A stretch of DNA of 26,437 nt, taken from the IMG/VR virus record IMGVR_UViG_3300025314_000090, positions 1 through 26,437 of that record. One strand, written 5' to 3'. This document shows, piece after piece, positions 2,147 to 26,437 of this stretch. Each line of letters starts with the position of its first letter. Positions within the stretch are counted from its first letter, which is position 1. The stretch comes from a virus. The position numbers and the translations under genes were made by a program. The notes under the pieces are model-generated. The model saw only the letters and a program-made list of their open reading frames with translations, was not told the origin of the DNA and ran no database searches.

Positions 2147-3586
2147 CTACTCCTCTGGCTCGAGATCAGGCTCGGGCTTCGGTGCGTTCGGATCGATCGG
2201 CTCGGGTGGGTTCTCGAGGCGGTCTACGGCGTTCTCGACGCCCAACTTGAGCATGGTCTCGCGCGCCTCGACGTCGATGCGGGTCTCGGCAGACCAGCCC
2301 CCTGGACCGAAGCGCGAGAGCGCTACCTCTTCGGGAAACAGCACCTGCGCGTGGACATAGGCCACATCGGATTCTGCCTTCAGGTTCTCGATCTCGGCCT
2401 GCTCCTTCGCGGTCGGCGTCCAGAGGGGCTTGAAACAAATGTCCCACGACTCCGGCTCGCCGCCCTGCTCGTGCCACAGCATCGCGAAGAGCTTGCGGAG
2501 CTGCGGCTTGACCTGGGCCTCGCGCTCGGCTGCGCACTGGTCGCGAAACCATCGCAGGTCCGACTCGCCGGTGGCGTTCAGGCCCGACGGTGATTGCCCG
2601 AACGCGATGGTGGCCGGCATGCGGGCCGCGGCTGCGAAGCGCAGCACGAACATCTGCATCACCTCCGGCACGCCGGTCAACGGAGTCGGCTTGCGCTCGA
2701 ACTCCTCGCCGTCCGCGTCGAGCAGCACCGCCCGCACGGTCGAGCGGGCGAGGTCCATCATTTCCATGCGGGCGTGGATGACGTCGCCGCCGCCCGCTGC
2801 CATCTGGTCGGCGAAGCCCCGCATCTTGAACACCGCCTGCGCGACGTCGGCCATCAGGTGAGCGACCGAGCCCCACGTGGTCTCGAAGTCTTGCAGCACC
2901 TCGTGCACGCGCTGCAGCACCGACTGGTCCCAGCCCATCAGCGTGCGACGCTTGGTGGGAGTCGTGCGAGCTCCGCGGAAGATCAACATTCGCGATTCGT
3001 GAATCGCGAATCCGCCGGCGGCCGAGGAGGTGACGGGCCCGGACGAGGGCACGCGCGTGATGCGGTAGAGCTGCGGTCGGCCGTACTTCGGCGCGCGCGG
3101 GTCCTCGTAGTAGCTCAGGACCTGCATGTCGCGCCGATCGAAGGCGGTCAGGAACGTGACCTTCTTGACCTTCGCGGGATCGAGCGGATCGATCTCCCCG
3201 AGCCCGTCCTCGACACCCACATACACGCCCCCACCACCGAAGAGCCTTCCCCAAGTGAGGCCTTCGACGAAAGCCTCGTGTCCGCCGAGCTCGCACCAGC
3301 GAGCCATTAGGGCGTTTGCCTGCTGCGAGTCGTCGCAGGTGAGCTCGAAGCCCGAGCGCATCATTTCGTCGACGGGCAGCTCACAGACGCGCGCCGCGAG
3401 GTCGTTGCCGTCGTAGAGGTTCTCGAGCTCGGAGTCGCTCAGCGGGATCGACAGCGCGAACGCCTGGCCGCGGCGCTTGTCCCGCAGCACGTTACCGAGA
3501 CCGGTGATGGTGTTGATCCAGCCGTCGTGGCGGATCTGCCGCCACACGTGCTCGACAGTGGATCGACTCAGTACGCCTCGCTGCAT
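2147..3586 (-). CDS. phage portal protein, DUF1073 (Phage_portal_3) type
   Basis: 479 residues. The portal forms the dodecameric ring at the head vertex through which DNA is packaged and ejected. The N-terminus (WINTITGLGNVLRDKRRG, then LYDGNDLAARVCELPVDEM) and the later MGWDQSVLQRVHEVLQDFE and GLNATGESDLRWFRDQC segments match the DUF1073 portal family, as does the length. Start: ATG at 3586, five bases after the terminase stop; an open frame continues further upstream but runs inside the terminase gene. The C-terminus is Pro/Asp/Glu-rich. The position directly after large terminase and before MuF is the standard order. Some databases attach an anti-CBASS (Acb1) label to this family; gene order here supports portal. 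Confidence 0.9.
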   Translation of the reverse strand: MQRGVLSRSTVEHVWRQIRHDGWINTITGLGNVLRDKRRGQAFALSIPLSDSELENLYDGNDLAARVCELPVDEMMRSGFELTCDDSQQANALMARWCELGGHEAFVEGLTWGRLFGGGGVYVGVEDGLGEIDPLDPAKVKKVTFLTAFDRRDMQVLSYYEDPRAPKYGRPQLYRITRVPSSGPVTSSAAGGFAIHESRMLIFRGARTTPTKRRTLMGWDQSVLQRVHEVLQDFETTWGSVAHLMADVAQAVFKMRGFADQMAAGGGDVIHARMEMMDLARSTVRAVLLDADGEEFERKPTPLTGVPEVMQMFVLRFAAAARMPATIAFGQSPSGLNATGESDLRWFRDQCAAEREAQVKPQLRKLFAMLWHEQGGEPESWDICFKPLWTPTAKEQAEIENLKAESDVAYVHAQVLFPEEVALSRFGPGGWSAETRIDVEARETMLKLGVENAVDRLENPPEPIDPNAPKPEPDLEPEE

Positions 3587-9462: not shown

Positions 9463-9614
9463 GCGGCTCCTTGGGCGTCCACACGCTCTCTGGCGGCTGC
9501 CAGCTGCCGGCGGAGGCCGTCCGCTTGCTGCGCGTAGCGAGGCGCCTCGGCGAGCTGGTCCGCCACCTGCTCGCGCGTCGAGGGTGGGCGGGGCTGCTTG
9601 GTTGCCTCGCTCAT
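9459..9614 (-). CDS. hypothetical 51-residue protein sharing a repeat with the initiator-like gene
   Basis: ATG at 9614, ATGA overlaps at both ends. The segment PPSTREQVADQLAE near the start is identical at protein and DNA level to the C-terminus of the initiator-like protein (10276-11067). The rest is a single predicted helix (YAQQADGLRRQLAAARERV). It could be a duplicated tail fragment left by recombination that kept a start and stop; expression is supported only by the overlaps. Confidence 0.5.
   Translation of the reverse strand: MSEATKQPRPPSTREQVADQLAEAPRYAQQADGLRRQLAAARERVDAQGAA
9549..9587. repeat. 39-bp perfect direct repeat, copy 1
   Basis: Bases 9549-9587 are identical to 10309-10347. 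The two copies lie 760 bases apart in the same orientation and flank the helicase loader gene. This copy encodes the STREQVADQL segment of the 51-residue protein. Confidence 0.95.
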
Positions 9615-10279: not shown

Positions 10280-11067
10280 GCGTCCACCCATTCCGGGTTT
10301 GGCTCGCGGGCGAGCTGGTCCGCCACCTGCTCGCGCGTCGAGGGTGGCAGGATGCCGCTCGCGCGCTGCGGCTGTGGCTCCGGCGCGTCGTCGACCCACT
10401 GCTCGAGCTGGGCGAGCAGCACCGCGAGACCGAGGTGGCGCGCCCGGACCTGCGAGTCGCGCTTGAATCTCTGGCAGGCCGCACGGAAGAGCTCGAGCGC
10501 CGTGGTGCCGCGCTCGGCCGCGAGACGCTCGAGCAGCGGAACGACGGCTCCAATGCGAGTCCGCATGACCCCGCTCGTCGTCAGCCCGCCAGCGCCGTCC
10601 CATGCGTCGGCCAGCTCGCGCTGGGACTGGGACTGGGTGGGACTGCGTGGGACTGGGACGGGGTGGGACTGCGTGGGACTGGGACTGTGGGACTGGTGGC
10701 CCGCAGGCGCGCGCGCGTTCTCGCTCTCTTCTGGTAAGATTGCGTATTCATTTGAGATCTTAAAGTCTTGAGGAGAGGATTCAGAGATCGCGCGCGGAGC
10801 AGTCCCACCAGTCCCACCCGGTTTTGGTACCGATTTTGGGGTGGGACTGGGGTGGGATTCCGTCGTGGGACTGGGGTGGGACTGGGGTGGGATTCCGTCG
10901 TGGGACTGGTGGGACTGGGACTGCGTGGGACTGGTGGCCGCGAGCTGGCGGGTCACGGCGCCGAGTAGCTCCACCTCGGGACCGAAGCCGGGCTCGCGGC
11001 AGAGTCGTGCGCGTACGACCCCGAGCGCGGCGATCGCGGTCTCGAGCGATTCTTGCCGACGTGCCAT
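10276..11067 (-). CDS. replication initiator-like protein (lambda O-type organisation) with origin repeats in its linker
   Basis: 263 residues, ATG at 11067. N-terminal helices (residues 1-45), then a long low-complexity linker rich in Ser, Pro, Gln, His and Thr (about 48-145), then a helical C-terminal domain containing LERLAAERGTTALELFRAACQRFKRD. The linker is encoded by arrays of TGGGACTG repeats interrupted by an AT-rich segment, like an origin placed within an initiator gene. The helicase loader follows directly. I do not recognise a specific family, and the N-terminal domain is short for a DNA-binding domain, so the initiator role rests on the layout. An alternative is a DnaD/DnaT-like accessory protein. 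Confidence 0.65.
   Translation of the reverse strand: MARRQESLETAIAALGVVRARLCREPGFGPEVELLGAVTRQLAATSPTQSQSHQSHDGIPPQSHPSPTTESHPSPTPKSVPKPGGTGGTAPRAISESSPQDFKISNEYAILPEESENARAPAGHQSHSPSPTQSHPVPVPRSPTQSQSQRELADAWDGAGGLTTSGVMRTRIGAVVPLLERLAAERGTTALELFRAACQRFKRDSQVRARHLGLAVLLAQLEQWVDDAPEPQPQRASGILPPSTREQVADQLAREPNPEWVDA
10309..10347. repeat. 39-bp perfect direct repeat, copy 2
   Basis: Identical to 9549-9587. Here it encodes the STREQVADQL segment near the C-terminus of the initiator-like protein. Confidence 0.95.
10622..10933. other. candidate phage replication origin: iteron arrays flanking an AT-rich element
   Basis: The 8-mer TGGGACTG occurs eight times between 10622 and 10695 (starts 10622, 10628, 10638, 10648, 10664, 10674, 10680, 10688) and seven times between 10842 and 10933 (starts 10842, 10866, 10877, 10901, 10910, 10916, 10926). 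It occurs twice in inverted orientation, at 10800 and 10809. Degenerate copies (TGGGATTC) lie at 10853 and 10888 within a 35-base tandem period. Between the arrays is an AT-rich stretch (10734-10770). This arrangement inside an initiator-like gene next to a helicase loader matches the lambda ori plan. The repeats are direct observation; origin function is inference. Confidence 0.65.
10734..10770. other. AT-rich segment, possible DNA unwinding element
   Basis: Only 12 of these 37 bases are G or C, against about two thirds in the surrounding sequence. It separates the two iteron arrays and contains the short palindrome AGATCT. It still encodes protein (linker residues including FKISNEYAI), so its composition is not due to loss of coding. 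Confidence 0.6.
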
Positions 11068-16057: not shown

Positions 16058-16303
16058 ATGCCCTCGTCACTCACCCCCATCCCGCCCCTCCTCCCGGTCC
16101 CCTCCGCCACGCCTCACCTGCGCGACCTGCTCGAGCAGCAGAAGCGCGAGGCGGTCGCCCGCAGCCTCCGCGAGCACAGCGCCGCGTGGGCGGCCGCGCA
16201 GGCGTTCGCACCGCCGGTCGAGTGGCCCGAGCCCGCCGGCTGCTCGCGCGACTGGGCCTGCTACCTGGCGGACGGCCACAGGGGCGGGTGCTGCCGTGAC
16301 TGA
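16058..16303 (+). CDS. hypothetical protein, first gene of the rightward operon (81 aa)
   Basis: ATG at 16058, eight bases after the -10. Pro-rich N-terminus, then an amphipathic helix (LRDLLEQQKREAVARSLREH) and a C-terminus with four cysteines (CSRDWACYLADG, GGCC). There is no named family. Its start agrees with the promoter position. Confidence 0.6.
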   Translation: MPSSLTPIPPLLPVPSATPHLRDLLEQQKREAVARSLREHSAAWAAAQAFAPPVEWPEPAGCSRDWACYLADGHRGGCCRD

Positions 16304-18426: not shown

Positions 18427-19070
18427 TGCCGGCACCAGTAGACCTGACCGGTCGGAGATTTGGAAAGCTGGTGGTGCTCAAGCTCGGGGCTAGGCGTAAC
18501 GAGGCACGCGTTTGGATCTGCCTGTGCGACTGCAACACGACCACCTCCGTGATTGGCCGCAACCTGGGGAACGGGCACACGCGCTCCTGCGGTTGCGCTC
18601 GCGTGCATCACGGAGAGTATGCGGGCGACTCGCTTCCATCGCCCGAGCTCGCGGCATGGAGAGCAATGATCGCGCGTTGCTCGAATCCGAAGAACCGCGT
18701 CTGGCACAACTACGGCGGGCGTGGCATTCGCGTTTGCGACCGATGGTCAGGATCGTTCAAAAACTTTCTGTCAGACATGGGGCGTCGCCCGTCTGACCGG
18801 CACTCGATCGATCGCGTCAACAACGACGGCAACTACGAGCCCAGCAACTGCCGGTGGGCGCTCGCCGTTGAGCAGTCGAACAATCGCCGAGGCATCAAGC
18901 GCATCGTCGTTGGCGACGTAGCTCTGTCAGCGCCCGAGTGGTCACGAATCACCGGCATCCACAAGGACACGATCCACGGGCGCATCGAGCGCGGCTGGGA
19001 TCCGGAGCTCGCGGTCAGCGCTGCACCTGATCGCTCAATGAAAGGGAGGCGATATGCTTTCGCTAAGTGA
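18426..19070 (+). CDS. HNH/homing-type endonuclease with N-terminal zinc finger and C-terminal NUMOD-like HTH (214 aa)
   Basis: ATG at 18426 overlaps the previous stop by one base (TGATG). Residues 30-57 hold a zinc site (WICLCDC ... RSCGC). The catalytic region has WHNYGGRGIRVCDRW and HSIDRVNNDGNYEPSNCRWA, as in phage HNH proteins of the AP2/homing group. The C-terminus (APEWSRITGIHKDTIHGRIE, RGWDPELAV) resembles a NUMOD1 DNA-binding motif. Codon use is less GC-biased than in neighbouring genes, as expected for a selfish insert. Its frame covers the ribosome site of the next gene and runs 17 bases into it. Confidence 0.8.
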   Translation: MPAPVDLTGRRFGKLVVLKLGARRNEARVWICLCDCNTTTSVIGRNLGNGHTRSCGCARVHHGEYAGDSLPSPELAAWRAMIARCSNPKNRVWHNYGGRGIRVCDRWSGSFKNFLSDMGRRPSDRHSIDRVNNDGNYEPSNCRWALAVEQSNNRRGIKRIVVGDVALSAPEWSRITGIHKDTIHGRIERGWDPELAVSAAPDRSMKGRRYAFAK

Positions 19071-19740
19071 CCACCTTAAGCCGTGGTCGGAACTCAACAT
19101 TGCTTGCATCGACTTCGAGACCACTGGACCAGACCCGAAGACCTGCGAGCCCGTCGAGCTCGCGGTCGTGCGCTTCGAGGGCGGCGAGGTCGTCTCCCGC
19201 TACTCGACGCTGATCGAGCCCGATGCTGCGATCCCGCCCGAGGCGACGGCCATCCACGGCATCACCGACGAGATGGTGCGCGAGAGAGGCACGGCGGCGA
19301 GCATGGCGTGGGCGGACGCGCAGCATCTACTGCGTGGCGCCATCCCGTGCGCCTACCACGCGCCGTTCGACCGCACGATTCTGCACCGCATAATGGTCGA
19401 CGCGCTCGACGGCCAGGCCGTGGCGCGGTGGCTCGAGCTCGAAACCGCGTGGCCGTGGCTCGACCCGCTCGTATGGGTGCGGCAGCTCGATCGCTTCGTC
19501 GCCGGCAAGGGCCGGCACACGCTCAGCGCTGCGTGCGCGCGGCGCGGCATCGTGCTCGAGGGTGCCCACCGTGCCGCGGCCGATGCCGAGGCGGCGGGGC
19601 GCCTGCTCTTCCATCCGAGCCTTCGCGCGCTCGGCGGCAGCTCGACCATCAGCGAGGTGCTGCGCCGGCAGTCCGCGACGGCCGCCGACCAGCAAGCCGA
19701 CTTCGAGCGGTGGCGTGCCAGCCAGCCGGTGCAGCCGTGA
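19054..19740 (+). CDS. DnaQ-like 3'-5' exonuclease (228 aa)
   Basis: ATG at 19054 with AAGGGAGG upstream. Exo I motif CIDFETTG (D20, E22), Exo II AYHAPFDRTIL, and Exo III with HRAAADAEAAG mark the DEDDh exonuclease fold of DNA polymerase III epsilon. It would trim 3' ends of DNA, in recombination or in proofreading. The C-terminal 40 residues after Exo III are polar and helical. Placed next to the putative annealing protein, it may supply the exonuclease half of a recombination pair, though such pairs normally use 5'-3' enzymes. Confidence 0.85.
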   Translation: MLSLSDHLKPWSELNIACIDFETTGPDPKTCEPVELAVVRFEGGEVVSRYSTLIEPDAAIPPEATAIHGITDEMVRERGTAASMAWADAQHLLRGAIPCAYHAPFDRTILHRIMVDALDGQAVARWLELETAWPWLDPLVWVRQLDRFVAGKGRHTLSAACARRGIVLEGAHRAAADAEAAGRLLFHPSLRALGGSSTISEVLRRQSATAADQQADFERWRASQPVQP

Positions 19741-19958
19741 GCGCTCACCTCGAGGTGGTGCAGGACGCCACCATCGATGCGCCGGCCGTCAGCTACCCGG
19801 TGACCGGCGCCGACATCCGGGCACTGGCCACCCGCTACGCCGGCCTCTCGTGCGACACCCGCGTGGCGCTGAAGGCTTCCGCTCTCGACTACGGTCGCCG
19901 GGTGGACGGTGCGGCGCGCGAGCAGCGCGCCGAGCTGGTGCGGGCGGGTGCACGATGA
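19737..19958 (+). CDS. hypothetical protein (73 aa)
   Basis: GTG at 19737 in a GTGA overlap with the exonuclease gene. The product begins VSAHLEVVQDAT and has a helical core (TGADIRALATRYAGLS, DTRVALKASALDYGRRV). No domain is recognised. Confidence 0.55.
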   Translation: MSAHLEVVQDATIDAPAVSYPVTGADIRALATRYAGLSCDTRVALKASALDYGRRVDGAAREQRAELVRAGAR

Positions 19959-20257
19959 CCGCACGAAGCTACCGGAGCAACGCCGCGGCTTGGGCACACG
20001 CATACTGCAACACTACCGAGCTACTGCTGAGCGGCAGAGCGTGCGCGGAAGCGCTGCGCCGGCCGCACTCCCTAGCAGCCTTCTGTCGCGCGCGCGCCGC
20101 TGGTGGTGATTTTCCACCGACCGCCTGGGCATGGCTGTGGTGGGCCGCTTGGGTGTGGTGCACCGAATTCGCGCGAATCGTCGCGTTGCGCGCACGCGGC
20201 AGCTCACGACCCGCCGCGTCCGAAGAAGCCGCGAAGAGCAAGAAGGCGAGGGCGTGA
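19955..20257 (+). CDS. hypothetical Trp-rich protein, possible membrane-associated (100 aa)
   Basis: ATG at 19955 (ATGA overlap). Residues 55-77 (TAWAWLWWAAWVWCTEFARI) form a hydrophobic, tryptophan-rich helix that could insert in a membrane, between a polar N-terminus and a basic Lys/Arg tail. The function is unknown; it may be a membrane-anchored small phage protein or simply a buried helix. Confidence 0.5.
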   Translation: MTARSYRSNAAAWAHAYCNTTELLLSGRACAEALRRPHSLAAFCRARAAGGDFPPTAWAWLWWAAWVWCTEFARIVALRARGSSRPAASEEAAKSKKARA

Positions 20258-20406
20258 CGCTCGGCAGACCTGGTACCAACGGCGCGCTGCCGCGCATCGC
20301 GTTCGCGAATCTGTGGGACTCGATTCACGGCAAGCGCCCCGGCTGCTCGTGGGACGCCAACCCGTGGGTGTGGGCGATCAGCTTTCAGAGGGTCGAGCAG
20401 CCGTGA
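20254..20406 (+). CDS. hypothetical protein (50 aa)
   Basis: GTG at 20254 (GTGA overlap). The short product contains IAFANLWDSIHGKRPGCSWD and NPWVWAISFQRV; it is aromatic-rich and compact. No family is recognised; four-base overlaps on both sides support expression. Confidence 0.5.
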   Translation: MTLGRPGTNGALPRIAFANLWDSIHGKRPGCSWDANPWVWAISFQRVEQP

Positions 20407-20603
20407 CCCGCGACCTCGCCCGCATCGCCTCCGCGCTCGAGCGCATCGCGGCCGCGCTCGAGCTGGGCTCGCACGCGCGCAAGCGCTCGACGGGCAAGAC
20501 CAAGCGCGCACGTCCGCAGTACCGGCCGCCGGCGCCGACCGTGCCGATCGACGACATCTCGAGAGAGCGCGCCAAGCAGGCGCTGCGGAGGGCGGGGTTG
20601 TGA
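20403..20603 (+). CDS. hypothetical basic protein (66 aa)
   Basis: GTG at 20403 (GTGA overlap). An amphipathic N-terminal helix (LARIASALERIAAALELG) is followed by a strongly basic, Pro-rich region and a final helix. It could bind nucleic acid; nothing specific is seen. Confidence 0.5.
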   Translation: MTRDLARIASALERIAAALELGSHARKRSTGKTKRARPQYRPPAPTVPIDDISRERAKQALRRAGL

Positions 20604-20980
20604 TCGGTGACGGGCTGCACCGGGTGCACGCAGCGCCTGCCGCGGGCAAGGGCGGCAACAGCGTCGACATTGGCGCGGTGAGATGGCGCGGCGAGTCCAG
20701 CGCAGGCGCGCCAAAGCGCGAGATGGCGCATCGAATCGCCACGTGCTGGAACGTGCTCGAGGGTTGGCCGACCGCCGCGCTCGAAGCGGGCTGTCTGCGC
20801 GAGGTGGACGATGCCGCGCTCGCGTTGTTGTCCGCGCTCGAGGGCGAGACCCTGACACAGGAGGGCAACCTTGCGCGCGAGCGTCTGCGCGCAGCATTCG
20901 CCGCGCGTGACCCTCAGCAGGACCTGTCTGGCGGCAGGCCGGCCGACTGCGACGACTGCTACCCGCCGAAAGATGCCTGA
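20600..20980 (+). CDS. hypothetical phage early protein (126 aa)
   Basis: GTG at 20600 (GTGA overlap). The middle (RIATCWNVLEGWPTAALEAG) resembles the 'ACVNAC-G-P-T-x-x-L' pattern of an unnamed but common family of small phage proteins, usually found near recombination genes. A helix and a Cys/Asp-rich tail follow. Its last eight bases overlap the integrase start. Confidence 0.55.
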   Translation: MIGDGLHRVHAAPAAGKGGNSVDIGAVRWRGESSAGAPKREMAHRIATCWNVLEGWPTAALEAGCLREVDDAALALLSALEGETLTQEGNLARERLRAAFAARDPQQDLSGGRPADCDDCYPPKDA

Positions 20981-22655
20981 CCGTCCGCCCAGCTTGCGGC
21001 CACCGGCCGGCCCGCGCGACAAGCGCCCGATGGGCAGCGGGTCGATCGAGGAGCGCGACGGCCGCCACCGCGTGCGGGTAAGGGTCGCGGGCCGCAAGCG
21101 CACGCTCGGCACCTACGCGACCCACGCCGAGGCGGCAGCGGTGCTCGAAGCGGCGCTAGAGCAGCTCTCGGCCGACCGCACCGCAAGCCCCGGCGCCACC
21201 ACGCTGCGCGATTGGATCGCGCGCTGGCTCGAACAGCGCCACCTCTCGGGTGTCGTGCGCTCGGTCTACGACGACGAGTCACGCTTGCGCGCGCACGTGC
21301 TCTCTGAGCCGTGGGCCGACGACGCGCTCGACCAGATCGACCGCCGCACCGTGCGGGCATGGGCGATCTCGATGCTGTCGCGCGAGGGCCGACGCCACGC
21401 CGGCGACGGCAAGCTGGTCAGCACCGGCCGGCGGCTCTCGCGCCACACCGTCAGCCACGTGCTCGCGACCCTGCGGGTGTGCCTGCGCGACGCCGTCGAA
21501 CTCGGGCTGCTCGACGAGAACCCAGCCGCCGGCGTGCGGGTGCCGGCCGCGCAGTACACGCACGAGCCCTGGACGTACCTCACACAGGGCGAGATCGACG
21601 CGCTGCTGTCGTGCGAGCTCGTGCCCGCGCCGTATCGGCTTCTCTACCGGGTCGCCATCTACACCGGCCTGCGCAAGGGCGAGCTCTGGGGCCTGCGCTG
21701 GGGCGACTGCTACCTCGACCACGCGACCCCGCACCTGATGGTGCGCCGCTCAAGGTCCGCAGCCCCGAAGAACGGCAAGATCCGAATGGTGCCGTTGCTC
21801 GGGCAGGCACGGGAGGCGCTCGAGCAGATGAACTCCATTTGTTCAGATTTGGCCCCTGATCGTTCAGCCGAAGGGGGTGATCGTTCAGCCGACCTCGTCT
21901 TCCCGGCACCCGACGGCTCGATGCGCGCGCGCTGGAACGACGCTCGGTGGAAGCAGCGCCGCAAGCCCTACACCACGGCCGACGGCGAGCGCCGCCACAT
22001 CACCGAGCCCGGCTACCGCGAGCTCGCCGGCATCAAGCGCCACGTGCGCTTCCACGACCTGCGGCACACGTGCGCGAGCCATCTGCTGATGGGCACCTGG
22101 GGCCGAGCGTGGCGGCTCGAGGAGGTGCGGGATTTGCTCGGCCACAGCGACACCGCGGTCACGCAACGCTACGCCCACCTGGCGCCCGATCGCCTGCACG
22201 CCGCGGCCGCGGCGACGGTGCTCGAGCGGCCCCAGACTGGCCCCACGGCACACGCTGCGAGCACCGCGGGCAGCGTGATCGGCGCCGACAACGCGCTGCA
22301 ATCGCTGGACATTGCGCGGGGAGCCATCTCCGAGATTCGAACTCGGGACCGACGGTTTACGAAACCGGTCGGGAGTGACGGACGTCATGGTGCTTTCGGC
22401 CCGTTGGGGCTGGCGTGGGGCCACGAAGCGCATGAGCTGGCGATCGACATTCTGCGGCGCGCCGCGCGCGGTGATGCCGTGCCTATCGAGGCAGCACACG
22501 GACTCGCTCAAGCCGTAGCCTCACACAAGGCGTTCAGGCTTGCCGCTGCCGTCCTGGCAGAGCTCGGCCAGCCCACGGCCCAGTCGCTGGCGGTCACACT
22601 CGCCGTGCTCGTTACGGAGGCGCTCGAGCGCACGCCGGAGGCCGGTCATGGCTGA
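20973..22655 (+). CDS. int: tyrosine integrase with long C-terminal extension crossing the attachment site (560 aa)
   Basis: ATG at 20973 inside the previous gene's end. An arm-type N-terminal domain (SGSIEERDGRHRVRVRVAGR) and a SAM-like core-binding domain precede the catalytic domain, which has R234 (TGLRKGELWG), K269 (GKIRMVPL), H361 and R364 (HDLRHTCASHLL), H391 (LGHSDT) and Y400 (TQRYAHL), the complete active set. The frame then runs through the tRNA-like att core (about residues 450-466) and continues 95 residues with GC-biased third positions. This makes the gene about 100 residues longer than usual. Integration at att would separate that C-terminal tail from the catalytic part. Alternatively the real stop usage differs or the tail is a separate product; no good internal start is seen. 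Confidence 0.9.
   Translation: MPDRPPSLRPPAGPRDKRPMGSGSIEERDGRHRVRVRVAGRKRTLGTYATHAEAAAVLEAALEQLSADRTASPGATTLRDWIARWLEQRHLSGVVRSVYDDESRLRAHVLSEPWADDALDQIDRRTVRAWAISMLSREGRRHAGDGKLVSTGRRLSRHTVSHVLATLRVCLRDAVELGLLDENPAAGVRVPAAQYTHEPWTYLTQGEIDALLSCELVPAPYRLLYRVAIYTGLRKGELWGLRWGDCYLDHATPHLMVRRSRSAAPKNGKIRMVPLLGQAREALEQMNSICSDLAPDRSAEGGDRSADLVFPAPDGSMRARWNDARWKQRRKPYTTADGERRHITEPGYRELAGIKRHVRFHDLRHTCASHLLMGTWGRAWRLEEVRDLLGHSDTAVTQRYAHLAPDRLHAAAAATVLERPQTGPTAHAASTAGSVIGADNALQSLDIARGAISEIRTRDRRFTKPVGSDGRHGAFGPLGLAWGHEAHELAIDILRRAARGDAVPIEAAHGLAQAVASHKAFRLAAAVLAELGQPTAQSLAVTLAVLVTEALERTPEAGHG
22322..22368 (-). other. attP core matching the 3' half of a tRNA-Thr (CGT) gene
   Basis: On the minus strand this reads an anticodon loop TTCGTAA (anticodon CGT), an anticodon stem of four good pairs, a five-base variable loop CGGTC, a perfect T stem (CCGAG/CTCGG) with loop TTCGAAT, the 3' acceptor strand AGATGGC and discriminator T. 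The 5' acceptor strand and D arm are missing, so this is not a tRNA gene. Phages that integrate into tRNA genes carry exactly such a 3' half as attP. It sits inside the integrase frame, with phage genes on both sides. Confidence 0.8.
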
Positions 22656-22668
22656 CCCGGAGGGACAG

Positions 22669-22764
22669 CTAGCTCGGCGACGAGAGCACGTCGCCGTCCT
22701 CGCCCGCGATCTCTATCGCGAGGGGCGCATCGGTATCGCCGTATGTGCTGGTGTAGCGAATCAT
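22669..22764 (-). pseudogene. truncated copy of the 105-residue tail protein (31 aa remnant)
   Basis: ATG at 22764 (ATGA overlap with the lectin-like baseplate gene). The first 27 residues (MIRYTSTYGDTDAPLAIEIA, GEDGDVL) are identical to the start of the protein at 25261-25578. The frame then switches to SSPS and stops. The switch occurs at the sequence shared with the GDVLSSP region of the baseplate gene, so this is a recombination scar rather than a normal gene. The integrase gene ends convergently 13 bases away. Confidence 0.8.
22674..22696. repeat. 23-bp repeat shared with 23771-23793, recombination junction
   Basis: Identical to 23771-23793 (the GDVLSSP codons of the baseplate gene). 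Bases 22684-22696 belong at the same time to the 82-bp repeat, so the junction lies within 13 bases common to three sites. Confidence 0.85.
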
Positions 22765-22765
22765 G
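22684..22765. repeat. 82-bp perfect direct repeat B, copy 1
   Basis: Identical to 25498-25579. It covers the start codon and the first 27 codons of the MIRYTST gene and the stop of the upstream lectin-like gene. Confidence 0.95.
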
Positions 22766-24140
22766 CCGCGAGCCCCGTGGTAGCGGTGATGTAGGCGCGA
22801 ATGAAAGCATCCAACTCCGAGGACGCATCCTCGACCATGATCAGTAGATAGAATTTGCCACCCGACACACTCGGGTGCCCGACGTTGATCGCATCTACAC
22901 TGTCGCATCCCGATGTGCCGGTGAACGCCGGCGATATCGCTGCGCCGTCGAGCTTGCCCACAAGCCCACTCGCCAAAAACTCAATGCTGGCGGTATGCCA
23001 GGCTGTGTCCGCAGCCGGGCTCGACAGTGTTATTTGTTGCAGCCCTCCGGGCTCGGGCTCGGCCTCCATAACAAAACTGCCACCACTGCGGTACAGCGCT
23101 GCATCGCCCGGACCACACAGCACGGCGCATGGTGCCATGACGCCCGACGCGTGTTGCGTCACAACGAAATACATTCGAATGCGGCGACCGCTCGACAACG
23201 ATATTGCTGTGTTGGTCAGGATGTCGTCAGCGTCGTTTGGTACCGTGTACGGGAGGTTGTTTGGCCCTCCACTCGCCACATATAGAGGCTGCAAGCTCGC
23301 TGTTGCCTGCGTGCAGTGATAGGTGCCCCATCGATCGTTGAGCTGCGAGACGTTCGCACCGTTTAGCGTGACGTTCGCCGCGGACACCTCGAGCCAGACG
23401 TGCCGCGTGAAGCCAGTGCCATTGGTGACGACGGCATCCCATGTCGCTGCGACGACGATCTCGTCATACGCGGTGGACGCGCCGTCGTGTACGGTGAGCC
23501 GCAGCACAATCGCTGCGGATGGAGCGCTGGGCGTAAATGTGCTGATAAGCGACGTGTCATCGCCGAATACGCCCGCTCCACCACTCTGCACGGTCCACTC
23601 GTACGTATAGCTCCCGGTTCCACCAGACGCTCCCACTCCGGCGAGGACAGCAACCCCGTTGGCCCAAGACGTAGGAGCTAAGCCTGCGTCTACCGTCAGA
23701 CTCACCCCGAGCGTCGCCGCGCCCTCCGAGCGCGTCGAGCATGCGCCGGCCAGCAGCCTCACGACCGCATTCGGCGACGAGAGCACGTCGCCGAATGCGA
23801 TCGGCACCTCGCCGGCCGTCGTGATCGCGACGACTTCCACCGCGCACCGCCGGCGATCGTCCAGCGACACGCTAAACGCGCGCACAGCCACCACCCCTGG
23901 CGTAGCAAGCGCCACCTGTCTGAGCACGGCGCGCGCCAACCGCAGATTCGGGTGCTTGACGAAGACCAGCTGGAACCACGGCACCCCTACCCGTGAGTCC
24001 AAAAACCATTCGCCGAGAAACGTGCGGAATCGGATTCGCAGGCTCTGCACCACAGCATCGGCGCCGACCGCTAGGCTGAGCCGTCCCTGCGTGATCGTCA
24101 GGTCCCCGGTCGCCAGATCGAGCCTAATATCACTACTCAT
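22761..24140 (-). CDS. baseplate W/gp25-like protein fused to PKD-like and lectin (LamG-like) domains (459 aa)
   Basis: ATG at 24140, three bases after the spanin-like stop. Residues 1-118 match the phage baseplate wedge W/gp25 type: DLATGDLTITQGRLSLAVG, AVVQSLRIRFRTFLGEWFLD, GVPW, then LATPGVVAV. Residues 126-144 (VVRLLAGACSTRSEGAATL) are repeat A. Residues 150-235 look PKD/Ig-like (GTGSYTYEWTV, IVLRLTVHDG). Residues 245-459 form a jelly-roll, concanavalin/LamG-like domain (VWLEVSAANVTLNG, DTAWHTASIEFLASG, INVGHPSVSGGKF, YLLIMVED). Such a fusion would place a receptor-binding domain on the baseplate. The lectin part is AT-richer than the W part, suggesting separate origin. Fusion of a core wedge domain to an adhesin is unusual. 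Confidence 0.75.
   Translation of the reverse strand: MSSDIRLDLATGDLTITQGRLSLAVGADAVVQSLRIRFRTFLGEWFLDSRVGVPWFQLVFVKHPNLRLARAVLRQVALATPGVVAVRAFSVSLDDRRRCAVEVVAITTAGEVPIAFGDVLSSPNAVVRLLAGACSTRSEGAATLGVSLTVDAGLAPTSWANGVAVLAGVGASGGTGSYTYEWTVQSGGAGVFGDDTSLISTFTPSAPSAAIVLRLTVHDGASTAYDEIVVAATWDAVVTNGTGFTRHVWLEVSAANVTLNGANVSQLNDRWGTYHCTQATASLQPLYVASGGPNNLPYTVPNDADDILTNTAISLSSGRRIRMYFVVTQHASGVMAPCAVLCGPGDAALYRSGGSFVMEAEPEPGGLQQITLSSPAADTAWHTASIEFLASGLVGKLDGAAISPAFTGTSGCDSVDAINVGHPSVSGGKFYLLIMVEDASSELDAFIRAYITATTGLAA
23709..23767. repeat. 59-bp direct repeat A, copy 1
   Basis: Identical to 26352-26410. It encodes the linker VRLLAGACSTRSEGAATL between the W-like domain and the variable adhesin region. 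Confidence 0.95.
23771..23793. repeat. 23-bp repeat partner of 22674-22696
   Basis: Encodes GDVLSSP in the baseplate gene; the same bases appear at the scar at 22674-22696. Confidence 0.85.
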
Positions 24141-25261: not shown

Positions 25262-25578
25262 CAGCAGCACCTCGGCGTAACGATCCACTCCACCGCGACC
25301 TCGCGAGTGCCACCCGCGGTCGTGATGCGCCAGGCGACGCAGAAGAGCGCGGGCACGCTCGGTTCTAGGATCATCCCCCAATCGATCACCCACATGAGTC
25401 CGGCCCCGCCATTGATCACGATGGCCGAAAACCCGTCATTGCCACCAAGACACGCGCCCGTTGGTGTGCGCACCTTCAGCGCGCCGCTGGTGACCTCGAG
25501 CACGTCGCCGTCCTCGCCCGCGATCTCTATCGCGAGGGGCGCATCGGTATCGCCGTATGTGCTGGTGTAGCGAATCAT
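25261..25578 (-). CDS. hypothetical tail-region beta protein (105 aa)
   Basis: ATG at 25578 overlaps the lectin-like gene's stop (ATGA). The sequence is beta-rich and acidic (MIRYTSTYGDTDAPLAIEIA, GALKVRTPTGACLGGNDGFS, REVAVEWIVTPRCC). I recognise no family. Its first 27 codons are the 82-bp repeat B, copied as a truncated fragment at 22669-22764. It may be a structural protein of the tail tip or fibre. Confidence 0.65.
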   Translation of the reverse strand: MIRYTSTYGDTDAPLAIEIAGEDGDVLEVTSGALKVRTPTGACLGGNDGFSAIVINGGAGLMWVIDWGMILEPSVPALFCVAWRITTAGGTREVAVEWIVTPRCC

Positions 25579-25579
25579 G
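25498..25579. repeat. 82-bp perfect direct repeat B, copy 2
   Basis: Identical to 22684-22765; in this copy the gene continues intact beyond the repeat (EVTSGALKV). Confidence 0.95.
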
Positions 25580-26437
25580 GCGTCCAGTCCTCTCCGTAGT
25601 AGCTTTCAAGTAGAGCTACCACCGCATCGCGTCGCGCCGCTGTGCCGCCCTTGCACACGACGATCGCCATCATGCGCCCGCCAAACGCATTGCCCGACGG
25701 CAGTCCCATCCTGTGTCCGAGGTTCACCTGCGTGCACTCGTATTCGGTGCGCACCATGCCGCTGGCATCCGGGACGTCATAGGTGCCGCCTCCGGCCGAG
25801 TCTAGGGCCACGTGAAGCAGCCCGTCGGCGTCATCCATCCACCCCGAATACAGGTACGGATTGCTGATGTCGTTGTCTACTGTCGCAGTGCTGCTGCATT
25901 CGCGCACCGTGCTATCACCGTCCACGTAAGCCTGGCAGCGCACGATATTCGACGTCATCACCCGCGCTCTGATCACCTTGCCGGTATCGCCGGAAGAATC
26001 CGAGTAGTCTACTATGGTGCGCGTGGTTGATGCGTCGCTTATGGAAAACACCACGAAGCACGCTAAGGCGTCACTCGATGCAGCGAGCCCAGCGAAACCC
26101 GACGCCAATCGATAATGTTCAGATTCGGCGCGAGTAAAACCTACGTACGCTCGGTTGTTGACGCACATGCCGTCGGGACTCGGCGTGGGCTGATAGCTCC
26201 CCGTCTCTTGCGTCACGTGGTTTGCGTACGAGCTCGAGTCCGACCACTGCGACGCTGTGGCGTTCTCGGCGATCAACAGGTGCACGCAATCTGTCCCGAG
26301 CAGTGTCAGGAGGTCTGACACAAGCGTCTCCCACGCAGGGACATCGACCGTGAGCGTCGCCGCGCCCTCCGAGCGCGTCGAGCATGCGCCGGCCAGCAGC
26401 CTCACGACCGTGAGCGTCGCCGCGCCCTCCGAGCGCG
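25575..26437 (-). CDS. lectin/LamG-like adhesin gene, 5' end outside the window
   Basis: The frame is open to the right edge, so the start is not seen; a GTG at 26405 is probably only the repeat-encoded Val. The N-terminal visible part is a tandem 20-residue repeat (VRLLAGACSTRSEGAATLTV) identical to the linker of the baseplate fusion, so the missing part may well be another W-like domain. The remaining ~260 residues look like a LamG/concanavalin-type jelly roll (HLLIAENATASQWSDSSSYA, ALACFVVFSISDASTTRTIV, VNLGHRMGLPSGNAFGGRMM). The ending parallels the other lectin gene: N-(L/V)-G-H, a Ser/Gly loop, then a helix with an aromatic end. It is AT-richer than the window average. Likely a receptor-binding protein. 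Confidence 0.65.
   Translation of the reverse strand, partial: RSEGAATLTVVRLLAGACSTRSEGAATLTVDVPAWETLVSDLLTLLGTDCVHLLIAENATASQWSDSSSYANHVTQETGSYQPTPSPDGMCVNNRAYVGFTRAESEHYRLASGFAGLAASSDALACFVVFSISDASTTRTIVDYSDSSGDTGKVIRARVMTSNIVRCQAYVDGDSTVRECSSTATVDNDISNPYLYSGWMDDADGLLHVALDSAGGGTYDVPDASGMVRTEYECTQVNLGHRMGLPSGNAFGGRMMAIVVCKGGTAARRDAVVALLESYYGEDWTP
26351..26437. repeat. repeat A, copies 2 and 3 (60-bp tandem unit cut by the window edge)
   Basis: Bases 26351-26410 form a 60-base unit; 26411-26437 repeat its first 27 bases, then the window ends. Bases 26352-26410 are identical to 23709-23767. The sequence may end here because an assembly could not pass this repeat. Confidence 0.9.

Follow-up and report, generated by a model that had tools for sequence, protein, structure and literature searches.

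What becomes of an integrase whose own attachment site lies within its reading frame is the question raised by int, a gene in the 26,437-bp stretch of viral DNA analyzed here (the window; IMG/VR record IMGVR_UViG_3300025314_000090). The gene (positions 20973 to 22655, plus strand, ATG to TGA) encodes a tyrosine integrase of 560 amino acids, corresponding to a long, unintegrated form. Residues 203 to 405 matched PF00589 in Pfam (E value, 1.6e−21), PHROG integrase families were also matched, and the AlphaFold2 model of the protein had lambda integrase as its closest fold in the PDB.

A tRNA core within the integrase gene

The catalytic tyrosine, Tyr400, is encoded at positions 22170 to 22172 (plus strand), and from this codon the frame is open to the TGA at 22653. 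Fifty codons past Tyr400, on the minus strand and therefore antisense to int, lies the attP core, which corresponds to the 3′ half of a tRNA-Thr(CGT) gene from the acceptor stem to the anticodon loop (22322 to 22363, perhaps to 22368). It carries a perfect 5-bp T-stem, a TTCGAAT loop, and an anticodon loop of sequence TTCGTAA (CGT with T33), in which the crossover would be expected to occur. All catalytic residues are encoded upstream of the core, and 95 codons remain past it. The location of attP within int, 3′ of the catalytic Tyr codon, was thereby confirmed. A sequence-only reading of this DNA had proposed the arrangement, and its coordinates, tRNA identity, and codon count were all correct; its end point for the core, 22368, holds to within a few bases, since other phages with Thr-CGT cores diverge just beyond the anticodon loop. 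A host tRNA-Thr(CGT) gene serving as the target would be expected to have the 3′ end ...TTCGTAAACCGTCGGTCCCGAGTTCGAATCTCGGAGATGGCTCC. The core lies beyond the end of the catalytic domain, so the active site must survive integration, which only exchanges the C terminus of the enzyme.

The window is part of a temperate phage genome. It matched IMG/VR contig 3300025164_001013 (42.8 kb, with a 60-bp end overlap) at 100% identity over 26,432 bases; in that contig int continues into phage tail genes, and the window therefore shows the unintegrated attP arrangement. A scan of genome contigs for a host or prophage returned just two weak, unrelated matches. No match at 1e−30 was found in 396 genomes of the Nitrosospira phylum, a scan that had no positive control and so says little. 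The tRNA pattern, when searched in viral contigs, was found only in the window phage and L004, and comparison of the tRNA fragments with plasmids and phages gave generic tRNA similarity only.

Several repeats were noted elsewhere in the window. An 82-bp perfect direct repeat (22684 to 22765 and 25498 to 25579) lies in the phage tail-gene region just 3′ of int, and a 59-bp perfect direct repeat (23709 to 23767 and 26352 to 26410) in the same region. Both lie at the termini of ORFs that are partly duplicated, and the contig ends consist of similar repeats; this repeat-flanked region looks like a duplicated or exchangeable tail-gene cassette. A 39-bp perfect direct repeat (9549 to 9587 and 10309 to 10347) is located in the replication-gene region. 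The nearest relative phage, L009 (IMG/VR 3300037474_000132), encodes tRNA-Gln(TTG) and tRNA-Asn(GTT) at positions 1263 to 1575.

Short repeats flank the core on both sides within int. Two copies of GGCCCCA, starting at 22228 and 22239 and thus 11 bp apart, form candidate left arm sites between the Tyr codon and the core (22228 to 22247, plus strand), and an inverted copy, CGTGGGGCCA, is a candidate right arm site inside the tail-coding part (22414 to 22423, minus strand). Most relatives likewise have pairs of direct repeats 10 to 12 bp apart on the left of the core and inverted copies on its right. In a shuffle test, the repeats of L021, L022, and L037 beat all shuffles, while those of the window taken alone did not (14% of shuffles were as good). 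The flanking repeats are candidate arm-type sites. In the AlphaFold2 model of full-length Int, residues 420 to 481 were predicted to be disordered (pLDDT, <50), and this linker is exactly the part encoded by the arms and core (22230 to 22415, plus strand).

A small ORF lies 5′ of int (20403 to 20603, plus strand) and has relatives in several phages of the clade described below. It encodes an N-terminal helix, a basic linker, and a C-terminal ARAxxALRRxG-like motif, and similar small ORFs precede int in L021, L022, L024, L027, L029, L037, L041, and others. Its position resembles that of uoi in Mx8, and by position only it is a candidate directionality factor.

Occurrence of the layout among related integrases

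Relatives were gathered by scanning viral contigs with catalytic-box fragments; only two loci were recovered when the query was a two-row alignment or the whole protein. The first relative, L004/L021, encodes an Int 62% identical to that of the window and has a core of the same kind inside the ORF, read in a different frame. When a tree was built from the catalytic domains, with the tail columns left out, all integrases with the core inside the ORF, except that of Mx8, fell within one clade of 24 members with 100/100 support. An enlarged set comprised 177 distinct viral integrases, 28 in the clade and 149 outside, to all of which a single T-arm detector was applied. The core was inside the int ORF in 16 of the 28 clade members and in 0 of the 149 others (Fisher's P = 1.4e−15), and at a GC content of ≥0.6 in 14 of 26 compared with 0 of 68 (P = 5.5e−10); as the trait was already known when the clade was delimited and the scans began from the window sequence, these P values describe the contrast and do not represent a blind test. 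L270 and L271 are two further cases with the core inside the ORF that were missed by the counting rule.

The layout is common in the clade but not obligatory, and the fewest changes that explain its distribution on the tree within the clade number four. At least nine members have no tail and stop shortly after the Tyr codon, so this type of integrase can function without one. In L244 the core is within the ORF and the tail is short. L025 has a complete tail (from position 3327) that is out of frame with int, which could reflect a frameshift or other real break, an assembly error, or a separately started protein. The clade also includes L245 (IMG/VR 3300009678_000002), a 91-kb phage with more than 25 tRNA genes clustered at contig positions 16254 to 19080; its int has the canonical layout, with the core after the stop codon.

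A recombination site inside an integrase gene is also found in the SSV-type archaeal integrases (PMC8371274), and integration here could in principle be suicidal in the same way, inactivating the integrase and making excision dependent on an intact copy from a superinfecting phage. In the SSV type, though, the split of the gene separates the catalytic part, whereas in the window the core follows the catalytic Tyr codon at a distance that keeps the entire lambda-type fold. The short-tailed members of the clade show in addition that a tailless enzyme is a normal state. Suicidal integration is therefore highly improbable, and a suicidal integrase was rejected as an explanation because the catalytic domain stays whole.

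The identity of each core was read by position from the T-arm, in some cases by eye. Thr-CGT cores were found in the window, L021, L043, and L049 and, by eye, in L244, L270, and L271. Arginine cores comprised Arg-CCG (L029, L032, and L037), Arg-CCT (L041 and L042), Arg-TCT (L031), and Arg-ACG (L025), and single phages carried Ala-GGC (L022), Val-CAC (L024), Cys-GCA (L039), and, assigned by eye from a sequence with a long variable arm, Leu-CAA (L027). Eight or nine different tRNAs thus serve as cores. Across the clade the antisense tRNA is read in all three frames. Conservation therefore does not extend to the core-encoded peptide but lies in a frame kept open as far as the tail.

The C-terminal domain past the core

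In the window, the tail domain comprises residues 484 to 553 (22422 to 22631, plus strand), has four predicted helices, and would be lost from an integrase encoded by the prophage. At 70% GC, long open reading frames are frequent, and arm-like repeats occur in the first part of the tail. The tail could accordingly be no more than a chance translation of the P′ arm of attP, opened by loss of a stop codon in GC-rich DNA and yielding functionless residues, a reading also favored by the nine or more short-tailed clade members and the out-of-frame tail of L025. Leave-one-out tail profiles gave a different picture: in 10 of 11 phages the frame continuous with int outscored the other five, and in the window it scored 16.6 bits compared with 1.1 for the next frame. 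In six phages the profiles beat every one of 500 shuffles that preserved composition; they were weaker in five, with no detection in L037 and L042. The shared pattern consists of a helix (LAxxxLxxxxxG), a turn, and a second helix (LAxAVL); longer tails have two more helices.

Selection on the tail could be assessed in one close pair, L270 and L271, using a simple Nei-Gojobori count over 68 codons. The dN/dS ratio was 0.29 for the tail and 0.17 for the catalytic part, whereas reading the tail in its two alternative forward frames gave 1.8 and 1.35. GC content by codon position was coding-like in nearly all tails. AlphaFold2 predicted tail helices at residues 484 to 498, 505 to 517, 519 to 530, and 535 to 553 with moderate confidence, and the same four helices were obtained when the tail was modeled alone (mean pLDDT, 71).

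The tail past the core is thus a real coding domain, under purifying selection in the one testable pair. Against chance read-through stand the frame-specific homology between phages, the selection in L270/L271, the coding-like codon positions, the predicted folded domain, and the lack of any such extension in the 68 GC-rich integrases outside the clade. We consider that reading unlikely, and chance ORF extension as a full account was rejected on the frame homology of the tail, the contrast between the clade and other integrases, and the L270/L271 dN/dS values. The proposal of the sequence-only reading that the frame downstream of the core is coding was upheld by the tail homology, the dN/dS values, and the predicted fold, and the opposite case, in which int ends before the core and the frame beyond is noncoding, does not apply to most clade members.

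Prophage forms and comparison with known systems

Integrated relatives were represented by L031, which is one end of a provirus. An intact antisense tRNA-Arg(TCT) lies within its int ORF, which continues into flanking host DNA and stops just inside an apparent neighboring tRNA, with no tail domain following; the contig is trimmed, and its other end carries no attR. The L031 int is a natural prophage form. In L039, int ends at a stop codon within the tRNA-Cys core, which is how a provirus would look if trimming stopped where the gene ends; L039 is thus a candidate provirus. The expectation that a long form is made from the free phage and a short form from the prophage was partly supported, in relatives rather than in the window phage itself: those in the attP form encode long integrases, and the L031 int encodes a tailless form with a host-coded end.

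The sequence-only reading had drawn its precedent from mycobacteriophages with integration-dependent immunity, in which attP likewise lies in a coding gene whose product depends on integration; there it is the repressor gene that is cut, whereas here it is int. The fitting precedent is the integrase of the Myxococcus phage Mx8, in which attP lies inside int, and the principle was thus already known. Record D86464 annotates the recombination site inside intP. Integration of Mx8 is reported to replace 112 C-terminal residues with 13 (PMC4701971, PMC6070905); PMC4701971 reports lower activity for the prophage form, and the review PMC6070905 reports changed site specificity or preference for the altered Int. 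As in the window, Mx8 has a tyrosine integrase, an antisense tRNA 3′-half core that the ORF crosses at codon 412 of 533, past the catalytic region and with 112 codons left, as well as repeats to either side of the core and still inside int (annotated in Mx8) and a small gene directly upstream. In contrast, the integrases share only ∼33% identity over 198 residues, the tRNA differs, and the tails have no detectable homology (94 and 89 of 500 shuffles scored as high). A tree that places Mx8 inside the clade was not rejected (p-AU, 0.59); the Mx8 branch is very long, and profile scores lean toward the out-group.

The Mx9 Int (GenBank accession number OQ709411; L311, positions 18795 to 20441) is also long, with an antisense tRNA-Gly (recognized by eye) in its ORF and a further domain beyond. 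It differs from the window Int in scoring with the out-group (122 bits, compared with 55 for the clade), in carrying a tRNA piece that looks like a 5′ half, and in having HTH_17 as its tail (residues 489 to 537; Pfam E value, 3.5e−11). The HTH_17 fold is also found in excisionases. The tail profile did not detect a window-type tail in Mx8 or Mx9. Since Mx9 lies outside the clade and has both a tRNA in the ORF and HTH_17 beyond it, the layout appears to have arisen more than once, with different tails.

The Mx9 domain and the reported change in site specificity of the altered Mx8 Int would also suit a tail that acts as a directionality module, altering which att pairs recombine, perhaps through contact with the arms or with another protein, instead of raising activity in general. 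This is possible but doubtful, as Mx9 Int is outside the clade and the window-type tail had no significant match among Pfam, PHROGs, or PDB folds.

Our preferred reading is that the phage probably makes two forms of integrase according to the location of its DNA. From unintegrated DNA, the 560-amino-acid form would be produced, with lambda-type arm-binding, core-binding, and catalytic domains followed by the flexible linker and four-helix tail. A crossover in the anticodon loop of the host's tRNA-Thr(CGT) gene would cut the int ORF within the linker, leaving a prophage int that is catalytically complete and ends in host-coded residues; the tail would be stranded at the opposite prophage end, and the phage-borne 3′ half would restore the tRNA. 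Excision would restore the long form. By analogy with Mx8, the likeliest use would be that the tail favors integration between attP and attB, whereas its loss would damp recombination in the lysogen and stabilize the prophage. For this phage, the crossover and the two protein products in vivo are what we infer from the layout; that the tailed enzyme would serve integration and the tailless one the lysogen follows from reports that the Mx8 exchange lowers activity and changes site preference. The suggestion of the sequence-only reading that the two forms could set the direction or stability of integration rests on the same Mx8 reports. The tailless clade members (at least nine), the out-of-frame tail of L025, the undetected tails of L037 and L042, and the host and prophage searches that yielded no match for this phage were counted as evidence against two forms.

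For decades Mx8 has been one of very few cases of an integrase gene rewritten by its own reaction (PMC4701971). The same source describes streptococcal ICEs in rumA, in which attR lies inside a serine integrase gene whose length and C terminus differ between the integrated and excised states; these differ from the window phage in their recombinase type and in using a non-tRNA site. The claim in a review that self-gene-disrupting recombinases occur only in archaea (PMC8371274) needs care. What is new here is the extent: no description of the clade-wide conservation, the tail domain, or persistence across many tRNA targets was found in the open-access literature, although an earlier mention is possible.

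Retention of layout and tail across a clade with differing tRNA targets would make selection for the layout probable. As related viruses keep both the layout and the tail domain, the findings suggest that the enzyme records whether the virus has already inserted. Evenly balanced, in our judgment, is the broader proposition that integrases of this clade carry an undescribed C-terminal domain only while unintegrated, forming a general integration-status switch across eight or nine tRNA targets, with the att DNA in a disordered linker, and not a peculiarity of Mx8. Clade-wide retention of layout and tail, if it holds, would open the question of the Mx8 C terminus to comparison, because the same type of enzyme occurs with and without the tail, at several targets, and in proviruses found in nature. 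A further consequence would be an explanation of how targets change while the tail is kept, given that the att DNA encodes only the linker, and the layout would suggest a simple way to design recombinases that are altered after acting.
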